Shown here: piece after piece, positions 9,303 to 45,542 of the stretch
Layout of the letters: each line of letters begins with the position of its first letter
How positions within the stretch are numbered: position 1 is the first letter of the stretch
Assembly (NCBI GenBank): GCA_021295965.1
Contig: JAGWBI010000006.1
Span: 1,005-65,004, forward strand
Origin: Dehalococcoidia bacterium
GTDB lineage: Bacteria; Chloroflexota; Dehalococcoidia; Lucifugimonadales; UBA3495
Reading direction: 5' to 3'
Length of the DNA stretch: 64,000 nucleotides
The notes under the pieces: generated by a model
The model's input: only the letters and a program-made list of their open reading frames with translations
Told to the model about the DNA's origin: nothing
Databases searched by the model: none
Translations under genes and position numbers: made by a program

Positions 9303-9330
9303 GTAGAGGCGAATAATTATTCGCCCCTAC
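9303..9330. repeat. GTAGGGGCG-AATAATTATT-CGCCCCTAC palindrome (AATAAT core)
   Basis: gtagaggcgaataattattcgcccctac. Confidence 0.85.
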
Positions 9331-12166: not shown

Positions 12167-12194
12167 GTAGGGGCGGGTTTGAAACCCGCCCCTA
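12167..12194. repeat. GTAGGGGCG-GGTTTGAAACC-CGCCCCTA palindrome (GGTTTGAAACC core)
   Basis: gtaggggcgggtttgaaacccgccccta. Confidence 0.9.
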
Positions 12195-15186: not shown

Positions 15187-15627
15187 ATGACCCAGGCCGC
15201 CCCCCAGATACCGTTGCCGCCGCCCCAACCGGAATCCGATTTCTATTGGGAGAAATGCAAGGAAGGCGAACTGTGGCTCCGCCACTGCACCGCCTGCGAC
15301 CGGGCTTACTTCTATCCTCGGGACATTTGCCCATTCCCCGAATGTTTCTCCCGCGATACCGACTGGATACAGAGCAGTGGGCGTGGCGCCTTGCACACTT
15401 TCGCCATCGTTCATCGAGGGCCAACCCCGGCGTTCCGGGACAAGGTTCCGTATATTCCCGCCGTGGTTGAGCTGGAAGAAGGACCAAGGATCCCGACCTG
15501 GATCGTAGGTATCGACTTCGCCGAAGGCGAGATCCGACCTGCTTCCGTGCAGTGCGGTATGTCGGTTGAGGTGGTCTTCGAGGAAATCGACGAAAACATC
15601 AGCCTGCCCATGTTCCGCCCGGCGTAA
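15187..15627 (+). CDS. Zn-ribbon/OB-fold protein (DUF35-like acyl-CoA-associated)
   Basis: EGELWLRHCTACDRAYFYPRDICPFPEC Zn ribbon followed by OB-fold-like region. Confidence 0.85.
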   Translation: MTQAAPQIPLPPPQPESDFYWEKCKEGELWLRHCTACDRAYFYPRDICPFPECFSRDTDWIQSSGRGALHTFAIVHRGPTPAFRDKVPYIPAVVELEEGPRIPTWIVGIDFAEGEIRPASVQCGMSVEVVFEEIDENISLPMFRPA

Positions 15628-15697
15628 AGCTCAACCCTCAATCCCAACCCGCCGTTTGCGACGTGGAGAACCCACCCCCCACCACACAGGAGGCATC

Positions 15698-16018
15698 ATG
15701 ACGCAACCCGCAGCCCGTACCGTAATGCAGGAAGTCATCCCTCGGCTGGCCGAATTTTCCGCCGACGTTCTGTTCGGGGACGTTTGGGAACGTCCCGGCC
15801 TATCCAAGCGCGACCGCAGCCTCATCACTGTGGCCACTCTCACCGCCCTTTACCGCACCGGCCAACTGCGGGGACACATTGGCCGCGCCCTGGACAACGG
15901 CGTTACCCGCGACGAGATTGCCGAAGTGATCATGCACATGGCTTTCTACGCCGGCTGGCCCGTGGCCGCCAACGCCGTCCAGGTTGCCAAGGAAGTGTTC
16001 GACGAGCGTGGCGTCTGA
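15698..16018 (+). CDS. Carboxymuconolactone decarboxylase family protein
   Basis: LFGDVWERPGLSKRDRSLITVATLTAL...HIGRALDNGVTRDEIAEVIMHMAFYAGWP. Confidence 0.93.
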   Translation: MTQPAARTVMQEVIPRLAEFSADVLFGDVWERPGLSKRDRSLITVATLTALYRTGQLRGHIGRALDNGVTRDEIAEVIMHMAFYAGWPVAANAVQVAKEVFDERGV

Positions 16019-16120
16019 CCCGACTTAATTCGCCGCGACAACATCTCCGGTTTCACATCGGCCGTCCGCCGCTCGGCGTGCCGGCCGATTTTTCAACCTA
16101 ATCTCAAAGGAGGCCCTCCG

Positions 16121-17791
16121 ATGCCCACCATGACCGGCGCCCGGTTCCTCGCCGAAACCCTTCGCGAATACGGCGTGACCCACGTTTTCTTCGTCCCCGC
16201 CATCATCCGCCGCGCGTTGGTTGAGATGGAGGACGTGGGCATCAAGCGCATCATCAGCCACGGCGAGAAATCGGCGGCATACATGGCCGACGCCTACGCC
16301 CGCGTCACGGGCAAGCCGGGCCTCTGCTTCGCCCAGTCCGTCGGCGCCGCTAACCTGGCCGCCGGTTTGCAGGACGCTTACTTGGGAGTCTCCCCGGTCA
16401 TCGCCATCACCGGCCACCGCCCGCCCATGCACCGGCACCGCAATTCCTACCAGGAAATCGAGCATTCCCGCCCCTTCGCCTCAGTCACCAAGTACAGCGT
16501 CGAGGTGGAAACGGCGGAACAGTTGCCCCACCTGTTGCGCCAGGCTTTCCGCGAGGTAACCACGGGCCAGACCCTGCCGGCGCACCTGGACTTTTCCGGC
16601 ATTTCCGGCGACGTCATCACCGACGGCATTCTGGACACGGACGTAATCGTCGAGGATCCCTTCACCCAGCGCCCAGCTTTCCGGCCTGAACCGGAACCGG
16701 AAAGGGTGCGGGAGGCGGCGCGCATCCTGTCGCAGGCCGAACGACCGGTGATCGTGGCTGGCGGCGGCGTGACGGCTTCGGGCGCGGAGGCAGAGGTGGT
16801 GCGTTTGGCCGAGATGCTCAACATTCCCGTCGCCACCGCCCTCAACGCCAAGGGCTGCATCCCCGAAAACCATCCGCTGTCCGTCGGCGTCGTGGGCAGC
16901 TACTCCCGTTGGTCTGCCAACCGCGTGGTATCCGAGGCCGACTTGGTGCTGTTTATCGGCAGCCACACCGGGAGTCAGGTGACTCTGGACTGGCGTATCC
17001 CCGCTGAGGGCACTCCCGTCATCCAGATTGACATTGACGCCAGCGAGTTGGGCCGCTCCTACCAGGGAGCCTATGGGCTGCTGGGCGACGCCAAGCGCAC
17101 GCTGGAACGCCTCATCGACGTTCTGGAACCCACGGGCGGCAACGCATCGTGGGTGCAAAGCGCCCAGGAGCACGTGCAAAACTGGCGCGACGAAAACGAG
17201 CCTGTGCTCACTTCCGACGCGGTCCCAATCCGTCCGGAGCGGCTGTGCCAGGAGTTGACCGACTTCCTGCCGTCCGACGCCGTTCTGCTCGCCGATACGG
17301 GCCACGCTGGCATCTGGACGGGCAGCATGGTTGAATTGCACCATCCGGAGCAGTCCTACCTGCGCGCCGCCGGCTCGTTGGGCTGGGGCCTGCCCGCCGC
17401 TTTGGGCGCCAAGTGCGGCGTACCCGACCGCCCGGTGGTCTGCTGGACCGGCGACGGCGGAATGTGGTACCACATCGGCGAACTTGAAACCGCCGTCCGC
17501 TACGGCATCAACGCCGTTATCGTCGTTCATAACAACGGCGGCCTGAACCAGGACCGACGCGGCGACGAGGCTGCCTATGAAGGACGAGAAGGGAACTCCG
17601 GCGAGCTGTGGCGTTTCAACGACACCGACTTCGCCCAGATCGCGGAGTCCATGGGCGCTTTGGGCATCCGCGTCACCGACCCCAACCAGATCAACTCCGC
17701 TTTGGACCAGGCCGTTAGCGCCAACCGTCCGGCGGTAGTGGATATCGTCAGCGACGGCGAAGTAGCCGCCGTGCCGCCCTGGGGACCTTAG
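16121..17791 (+). CDS. Thiamine pyrophosphate-dependent enzyme (acetolactate synthase-like)
   Basis: GEKSAAYMADAYARVTGKPGLCFAQSVGAANLA; C-terminal TPP motif GDGGMWYHIGELETAVRYGINAVIVVHNN. Confidence 0.92.
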   Translation: MPTMTGARFLAETLREYGVTHVFFVPAIIRRALVEMEDVGIKRIISHGEKSAAYMADAYARVTGKPGLCFAQSVGAANLAAGLQDAYLGVSPVIAITGHRPPMHRHRNSYQEIEHSRPFASVTKYSVEVETAEQLPHLLRQAFREVTTGQTLPAHLDFSGISGDVITDGILDTDVIVEDPFTQRPAFRPEPEPERVREAARILSQAERPVIVAGGGVTASGAEAEVVRLAEMLNIPVATALNAKGCIPENHPLSVGVVGSYSRWSANRVVSEADLVLFIGSHTGSQVTLDWRIPAEGTPVIQIDIDASELGRSYQGAYGLLGDAKRTLERLIDVLEPTGGNASWVQSAQEHVQNWRDENEPVLTSDAVPIRPERLCQELTDFLPSDAVLLADTGHAGIWTGSMVELHHPEQSYLRAAGSLGWGLPAALGAKCGVPDRPVVCWTGDGGMWYHIGELETAVRYGINAVIVVHNNGGLNQDRRGDEAAYEGREGNSGELWRFNDTDFAQIAESMGALGIRVTDPNQINSALDQAVSANRPAVVDIVSDGEVAAVPPWGP

Positions 17792-43632: not shown

Positions 43633-44463
43633 TTATTCCTCGTCGCGGATGCGGGAGTACATCGCCAGCGGCGTTGCCGCCAGCAAACCGGCATCCACCG
43701 GCAGCACCACGCCGGAAACCCAGCGTGCTTCGTCACTGGCCAGGAACAGGGCGGCGTAGGCGATGTCCCACGCGTTACCCTCGATTCCCAGGGGACCGGC
43801 CTTGCGCCGATTCTGCCGTGTCTCCTCGGCCATCGCGCCGGCGACCATGGGCGTGTAGATATGTCCGGGCGCAATCACGTTGACGCGGATGTTGTCACGG
43901 CCCAGATGCACCGCCATCGTCTCCGACATCCCGATCACACCCGACTTGGAAGCCGAATACGGAATGCTGGCAAGGCCGCTGCCGGCCCGCACGCCGGCGA
44001 TGGAGGACATATTGATGATGCTGCCGCCGCCGGCGGCGATCATCTTCGGCGCGGCGTACTTGGTGGTCAGCATCATGCTCTTCAAATTCACGTCCAGCAC
44101 GTTGTCCCAAACGCTTTCCTCAACGTCGGTGGGCGTGCCCGGGCCGGTGATGCCGACGTTATTGAACAGGATGTGCAGCGCCCCGTAGCGTTCCACGGCG
44201 GCGTTCACGATGGCCTCGCAATCGGAGGCGTCGGTCACGTCGGCCGCCATGACCGACGCCTCGCCACCCTGCTCGTGGATGATGGCCAACGTCTCCTCGG
44301 CGGCTTGCGTGTTGCGATCCACCAGCAGAACCTTCGCGCCTTCCTGGGCAAACAGGATTGAAGCGGCCTTGCCGGTTCCGGTACCGGGGCCGCTGGAGCC
44401 GGCTCCCGTGACAATAGCGACTTTATCTTGCAGGCGGGGACGGCCCGACGGCAGCAGGGTCAT
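43633..44463 (-). CDS. SDR family oxidoreductase
   Basis: KVAIVTGAGSSGPGTGTGKAASILF; NNVGITGPG; YSASKSGVIGMSE. Confidence 0.93.
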   Translation of the reverse strand: MTLLPSGRPRLQDKVAIVTGAGSSGPGTGTGKAASILFAQEGAKVLLVDRNTQAAEETLAIIHEQGGEASVMAADVTDASDCEAIVNAAVERYGALHILFNNVGITGPGTPTDVEESVWDNVLDVNLKSMMLTTKYAAPKMIAAGGGSIINMSSIAGVRAGSGLASIPYSASKSGVIGMSETMAVHLGRDNIRVNVIAPGHIYTPMVAGAMAEETRQNRRKAGPLGIEGNAWDIAYAALFLASDEARWVSGVVLPVDAGLLAATPLAMYSRIRDEE

Positions 44464-44484
44464 TTTCAACCTCCGGCAAATTGG

Positions 44485-44510
44485 TGGGGGCGAATAATCA
44501 TTCGCCCCCA
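44485..44510. repeat. TGGGGGCGAATAATCATTCGCCCCCA palindrome (AATAAT core)
   Basis: Arm variant of the GTAGGGGCG-AATAAT family. Confidence 0.85.
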
Positions 44511-44532
44511 TGGAGTTGTGAGTTGACGAGGG

Positions 44533-45099
44533 CTAGGTTGCCGACACCGGCTGCGGGCTGAGCAGCCAGTCCTGAGCTTGTTTGGCGGCGTCAGAAAGCC
44601 ATTGGCTCATGATGGCTTCTCGGCCTTCGGGAATTTCCACGCCCAGACCGTCGGCCAGGCGGTTCATGAAGTTGAACACACAGGTTATCGCCACCGTGGA
44701 CAGTATCTGCTGATCGGTGAGGCCCACGGTGCGCAGGCCCTCAACATCCGATTCCCGCATCAATGCGGGTGTCAACGTCAGTTTGACGGCATAATCCAGA
44801 ATGGCCCGGGTCTGGGGGTCCAGGTCGGCTTGCTTGTAATCATGGATGATGTGGCTGGAATACTCAGGATCGCCGGAATGCTGACGGAGGAACCCTCCGT
44901 GGGCGACGGCTCAATAACGGCAGCGGTTGACCAGCGAAACCACCGTAGCGATTGCCTCTTCCTGGGTGCGTGTCAACGCCGAGGAGCCAAAGGTGGCTTT
45001 GTGATTAAGATTCTGCACCGCTGCCATCAAGTCGGGGTTGATGGACATACACTTGATGACCGACGGCACCGCCGCGTCGTCTTCGCGTATCCAGGACAT
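44533..45099 (-). CDS. AhpD-like/peroxidase-related protein, probable selenoprotein with in-frame UGA (Sec) at 44911..44913
   Basis: Same frame continues through TGA: ...EEAIATVVSLVNRCRY[TGA]AVAHGGFLRQHSGD...LTDQQILSTVAITCVFNFMNRLADGLG...*; TGA occupies the second Cys of CxxC-x3-H; hairpin follows. Confidence 0.8.
44884..44900 (-). promoter_or_regulatory. Candidate bacterial SECIS hairpin
   Basis: Minus strand UGA-GCCGUCGCCC-ACGGAGG-GUU-CCUCCGU; 7-bp stem, or 6-bp stem with GGUUC apical loop, starting 10 nt after UGA. Confidence 0.6.
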
Positions 45100-45121
45100 T
45101 TGAAAGGCTCCTTCATTCGGT

Positions 45122-45150
45122 GTAGGGGCGGGTTTGAAACCCGCCCCTAC
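45122..45150. repeat. GTAGGGGCG-GGTTTGAAACC palindrome (GGTTTGAAACC core)
   Basis: gtaggggcgggtttgaaacccgcccctac. Confidence 0.95.
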
Positions 45151-45542
45151 GGATGCTCGGTTCGTGGCACCACCGCCATCTTGTGCTCCGCCGTCCCCAG
45201 CACCAGGTCTCCCAGTTTCGCCACCACCTCGAACCGCAACTTGTTGCCGGACACGTCGGTCAGTACGGAACGGGCCTCCACATCGCTGCCCAGGTCCGCC
45301 GGCGCGAGATGCTTTACGTTGACTTCGTACCCTACCGCCGTTTGTTGGGGGTGAAGCAACGGCAGCACCGCGTGGTATGACGCCTGTTCCATCAGCATAA
45401 TCATGGCCGGCGTGCTGAACTTGGGTGTGTGGGGCGCCAGGTGCTCGTCGGCAACCGTTAATTGCGTTTCGCCTGCCAAACCAGGCCGTATGGCCGGGTT
45501 GATCGGCAGGCGAACCGGATCCGAAGCGCCGGGAGTTGCCAT
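45147..45542 (-). CDS. Thioesterase family protein (fluoroacetyl-CoA thioesterase-like hot-dog)
   Basis: FSTPAMIMLMEQASYHAVLPLLHPQQTAVGYEVNVKHLAPADLGSDVEARSVLTDV. Confidence 0.87.
   Translation of the reverse strand: MATPGASDPVRLPINPAIRPGLAGETQLTVADEHLAPHTPKFSTPAMIMLMEQASYHAVLPLLHPQQTAVGYEVNVKHLAPADLGSDVEARSVLTDVSGNKLRFEVVAKLGDLVLGTAEHKMAVVPRTEHP

Follow-up and report, generated by a model that had tools for sequence, protein, structure and literature searches.

A candidate AhpD-like selenoprotein gene with an in-frame UGA and a SECIS-like hairpin in a SAR202-order Chloroflexota genome

Gene frame and internal TGA

Two short open reading frames lie in the same minus-strand frame of a 64,000-nucleotide stretch of DNA (the window) from a Dehalococcoidia bacterium (GCA_021295965.1, contig JAGWBI010000006.1), separated by a single TGA codon. 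This raises the question whether they are the halves of a broken gene or one gene in which UGA is read as selenocysteine (Sec). A preliminary description had proposed the latter, a 'probable new selenoprotein' of the AhpD type with the TGA in place of the second Cys of a CxxC-x3-H active site.

Direct reading of the minus strand gave the same coordinates (Table 1) and the same peptide, NRCRY-U-AVAHGGFLRQH. The frame runs from ATG to TAG and the TGA is its sole internal stop; the motif reads CRY-U-x3-H and the column of the TGA is occupied by Cys in distant homologues. The long open AhpD-like frame described past the TGA amounts to 125 codons, and the read-through protein scored well above the cut-offs of TIGR01926 (peroxidase-related enzyme; 134.6 versus 81.8 bits) and Pfam CMD (41 versus 23 bits).

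Table 1. Positions of the gene, its predicted recoding signals and its neighbours in the window.
Feature	Position	Strand	Basis or remark
AhpD-like (TIGR01926) gene, predicted selenoprotein	44533..45099	minus	188 codons with one UGA read through
UGA codon 63, CRYU (CxxU), predicted Sec	44911..44913	minus	TGA column in homologues
Shine-Dalgarno-like AGGAG	45108..45112	minus	8 nt 5' of ATG; read directly
Predicted bacterial SECIS hairpin	44884..44900	minus	loop GUU on 7 bp, alternatively loop GGUUC on 6 bp; from +11 to +27 relative to the UGA
FlK/4HBT-type hot-dog thioesterase-like gene	45147..45542	minus	Pfam FlK 90.4 bits; synteny
UGSC-family gene without the GVGD-U-GS codons	45569..46165	minus	comparison with genus orthologues
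SDR-family oxidoreductase gene, downstream of the AhpD-like gene	43633..44511	minus	kept in genus

A stop-to-stop scan of the window for other genes read through TGA revealed none that was convincing, in a scan that is not exhaustive and that also missed the AhpD-like gene. Its best coding case, at 15509-17791, was rejected as two adjoining genes, CMD followed by a TPP enzyme, that meet at a normal TGA stop. Two families of REP-like palindromic repeats were also noted, GGGCGGGTTTCAAACCCGCCC with four copies (at 12171, 38538, 43591 and 45126) and GGGGCGAATNATTATTCGCCCC with five (at 9306, 36393, 44487, 61658 and 63198), where none are expected by chance. One copy of each family flanks the AhpD-like gene.

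Conservation of the TGA codon

Translation with table 11 splits the reading frame in two, as it would a pseudogene cut at codon 63 by a nonsense mutation or a sequencing error. A survey of 250 genomes of the order yielded an AhpD-like homologue in 101 of them, mostly with exactly one internal TGA. Among 94 distinct homologues, TGA occupies the Sec column in 76, down to about 46% identity; these 76 genes belong to SAR202-order Chloroflexota, apart from five Binatia-type MAG loci at that lowest level of identity. The remaining codons at this column specify Cys (nine sequences, all distant), Gly (six), Glu (one) and Leu (one), and one is TAA. Close relatives have TGA rather than TGC or TGT and show no other inactivating change. 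Both Sec and Cys forms occur in other Chloroflexota, the Cys form in the more distant ones. The gene thus has an in-frame UGA where homologues have Cys, a pattern used to recognise selenoproteins.

Both sides of the TGA are under strong purifying selection. Within the genus, dN/dS 3' of the TGA is 0.04-0.13 and dN 5' of it is similarly low. The combination of a low dN (0.05-0.13) and a dS above 1 after the TGA indicates that the sequence past this codon is translated and under selection. A TGA shared by dozens of independently assembled genomes, with selection continuing beyond it, refutes the pseudogene reading and leaves it a negligible probability.

Recoding of UAG or UAA was considered and rejected, as the TAG codons seen in four genomes (G202, G222, G062 and G010) fall off the Sec column. 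The single homologue with TAA at the Sec codon (L064, G207:C85) keeps a perfect hairpin and lies near a contig end. As the contig end is close and the tRNA-Sec of that genome has the anticodon TCA, Sec coded by UAA is not claimed; the TAA may be a mutation, an error or something else.

A hairpin downstream of the UGA

The ACGGAGG-GUU-CCUCCGU stem that had been described shortly 3' of the UGA was located on the minus strand, its first nucleotide at +11. Over the TGA genes the consensus at this place is ACGGAG-5 nt-CUCCGU. Published rules for bacterial SECIS elements specify a stem of 4-16 bp, a loop of 3-9 nt with G in one of its first two positions, a distance of 16-37 nt between UGA and loop, and a minimum free energy (MFE) of at most -7.5 (PMC13188914). 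The hairpin has a loop of 3-5 nt with G in the required place, located 16-17 nt after the UGA, and an MFE of -10.5 kcal/mol. An Rfam search of the region at E<=10 gave no match of the hairpin to any family, SECIS included.

The upper stem pairs at all six positions in 72 of the 76 TGA genes versus 0.38 expected, a value obtained by redrawing synonymous codons from local codon usage, while a perfect hairpin was found in none of the 17 homologues with Cys, Gly, Glu or Leu. The Binatia genes have ACGCAG/CUGCGU, a compensated swap of G-C to C-G; it combines GGA to GCA, a second-position change, with CTC to CTG, a third-position change in a Leu codon, so that one of the two is synonymous. Within the genus, the six codons of the hairpin (67-72) are identical in 270 of 270 comparisons of the same residue versus 57.5% elsewhere in the gene. 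The hairpin thus showed covariation in addition to agreement with the published constraints, and its retention at synonymous positions again speaks against a pseudogene. The recurrence of the TGA column and the preservation of the stem at synonymous positions beyond expectation imply that the observation is not due to chance.

The six Gly paralogues and the one with Glu (L063, L068-L073) form one clade with support 100, nested in the Sec radiation; the tree is a quick one, with moderate support for the exact position of the clade. Its members keep the first Cys, but the UGA is gone and so is the perfect hairpin. This joint loss serves as a natural control linking hairpin and UGA, and shows for a Sec-to-Gly replacement that the hairpin goes when the UGA goes. 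Gly, instead of Cys, is an unusual replacement of Sec.

Selenocysteine machinery of the source genome

The source genome consists of 3.23 Mb in 86 contigs and is 86.6% complete with 5.9% contamination; its close relatives are labelled SAR202/Dehalococcoidia MAGs. It contains a tRNA-Sec with anticodon TCA (69 bits), selA (546 bits), a full-length selB (356 bits, on contig C7) and selD, so that the three Sec proteins and the tRNA are united in one genome, as is expected of a selenoprotein gene's host. The selD match itself has a TGA at the catalytic site, read HCAG-U-AAK. In the order, selA exceeds the cut-off in 201 of 250 genomes; some of the TGA-bearing MAGs, several of which are incomplete, gave no selA match. 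Two adjoining partial matches to the selB model, beside the full gene on C7, were noted at C82:58921-60016 (L007 and L012); they may represent a second selB that is broken, a different GTPase or contamination.

Nine regions of the UGSC family were found in the source genome, on contigs C45, C69, C8, C51, C67, C19 and C37 (where a pair of fragments was taken as a single region), eight of them with an in-frame TGA. On these counts the organism is probably a rich user of Sec, and UGSC would be an expanded selenoprotein family in it.

UGA is read through at a low level in bacteria, and UGA 63 could in that way be decoded as an amino acid other than Sec, such as Trp through near-cognate suppression, or could mark a regulated truncation. 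This is very improbable here, given Cys at the same column in distant homologues, a complete Sec machinery and a SECIS-like hairpin, which genes lacking the UGA either do not have or have only in imperfect form. From the computed frame, conservation, hairpin and machinery we infer Sec insertion at codon 63, which is strongly supported as a prediction from sequence. The two fragments are thus almost certainly one 188-residue AhpD-like (TIGR01926) selenoprotein gene. In the proposed mechanism, the hairpin, starting 11 nt 3' of the UGA, would recruit SelB, and tRNA-Sec(UCA) delivered by SelB would decode UGA 63, which would put Sec in place of the second Cys of CxxC.

Fold and active site

An AlphaFold model built from an alignment of 43 sequences reached a pLDDT of 93. 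Its top Foldseek matches were 3c1l, 2pfx, 6k40, 2oyo and 2prr (E about 1e-9), Cys-containing proteins of the TIGR01926 type that are alike in fold (TM 0.75-0.80) and related in sequence. The two shown aligned, 2pfx and 2oyo, have Cys at the second position of CxxC, where the present gene has TGA.

Glu48 and Cys60 are invariant in the homologue alignment and His67 nearly so. These residues and Sec63 place a Glu 12 residues before the first Cys and a His four residues after the second Cys/Sec, and the spacing of Glu48-Cys60-Tyr62-Sec63-His67 equals that of the proton relay Glu36-Cys48-Tyr50-Cys51-His55 of Pseudomonas PA0269 (PMC3141380). The relay Glu, both Cys positions and the His are equally spaced in Mycobacterium tuberculosis AhpD, whose Cys133 corresponds to the Sec column, but that protein differs in its CSHC motif and helix topology (PMC3141380) and matches the whole fold weakly (TM about 0.5).

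The mature protein would be an all-helical thiol/selenol oxidoreductase of the CMD/AhpD fold using this relay. Most likely, Sec63 would reduce peroxide or another oxidised substrate, with resolution through a Cys60-Sec63 selenenylsulfide. Catalysis, substrate and reductant are what we infer from the computed fold and the family, and the peroxidase function is putative; its chemistry is uncertain, since among TIGR01926-like relatives there are some whose peroxidase activity is weak or uncharacterised. A selenoprotein that is instead a reductive dehalogenase or other reductase is brought to mind by the CMD-fold debrominase Bmp8, whose structures 6ohj and 6ohi come up among the fold matches that follow the TIGR01926 proteins (19-20% identity, TM 0.74, E about 1e-5). 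The peroxidase-related proteins are closer by both sequence and fold, and such a role is considered unlikely.

Gene neighbourhood

The UGSC, FlK-like thioesterase, AhpD-like (Sec) and SDR genes follow each other on one strand, a run conserved in the genus. These neighbours would also fit a function other than peroxidase, but the gene order is lost outside the genus and the neighbourhood was therefore dropped as a general functional clue. In the orthologous loci of the genus only the thioesterase gene separates the UGSC and AhpD-like genes. That these two, both Sec-coding, serve one selenium-dependent pathway in the genus rather than general peroxide defence is a speculation to which we give little chance; such a pathway might be reductive dehalogenation or acyl-thioester redox chemistry.

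The motif GVGD-U-GSC was present in the UGSC orthologues of all 12 other same-genus genomes in which the site was found. The copy in the window lacks exactly 21 nt in frame, the seven codons of GVGD-U-GS, at the junction 45817/45818, and the hairpin after the Sec site survives despite this gap. Its substitution pattern is otherwise ordinary, which points to a recent deletion or an assembly fault.

Comparison with known selenoproteins

AhpD-like proteins with CxxU were reported from the Sargasso Sea in 2005 (27 sequences, COG2128; PMC1088965) and in the 2008 GOS survey as AhpD-like 1 (299 sequences; PMC2398784), which bears out the statement that such proteins are known from metagenomes. A 2026 review places them under TIGR01926 (PMC13188914). 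The genomic evidence upholds the 'selenoprotein' of the preliminary description; 'new' holds for this member, the SAR202 gene, and not for the family, a kind described since 2005. A text search of the literature for both terms brought up no paper on selenoproteins in SAR202, and within the searchable literature their spread across SAR202 appears not to have been described. SAR202 is a major uncultivated ocean lineage; as standard gene calling splits this gene and the same in-frame TGA recurs across the order, the same mis-calling is likely there. The 76 TGA genes and 17 controls with Cys, Gly or other residues further offer a clean covariation view of a bacterial SECIS within coding sequence.

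The related family AhpD_rel_CFYUT (NF041238, a model of 357 positions) likewise comprises AhpD-related CxxU (seleno)proteins, but a score of 58 bits against its cut-off of 175 places the present protein outside it. With the published AhpD-like selenoprotein (TIGR01926/COG2128, 'AhpD-like 1') it shares the NCBIfam model, the CxxU motif and a SECIS directly downstream. The published sequences are mainly marine metagenome reads, whereas the present ones come from whole genomes of the SAR202 order, with covariation and genomic context.
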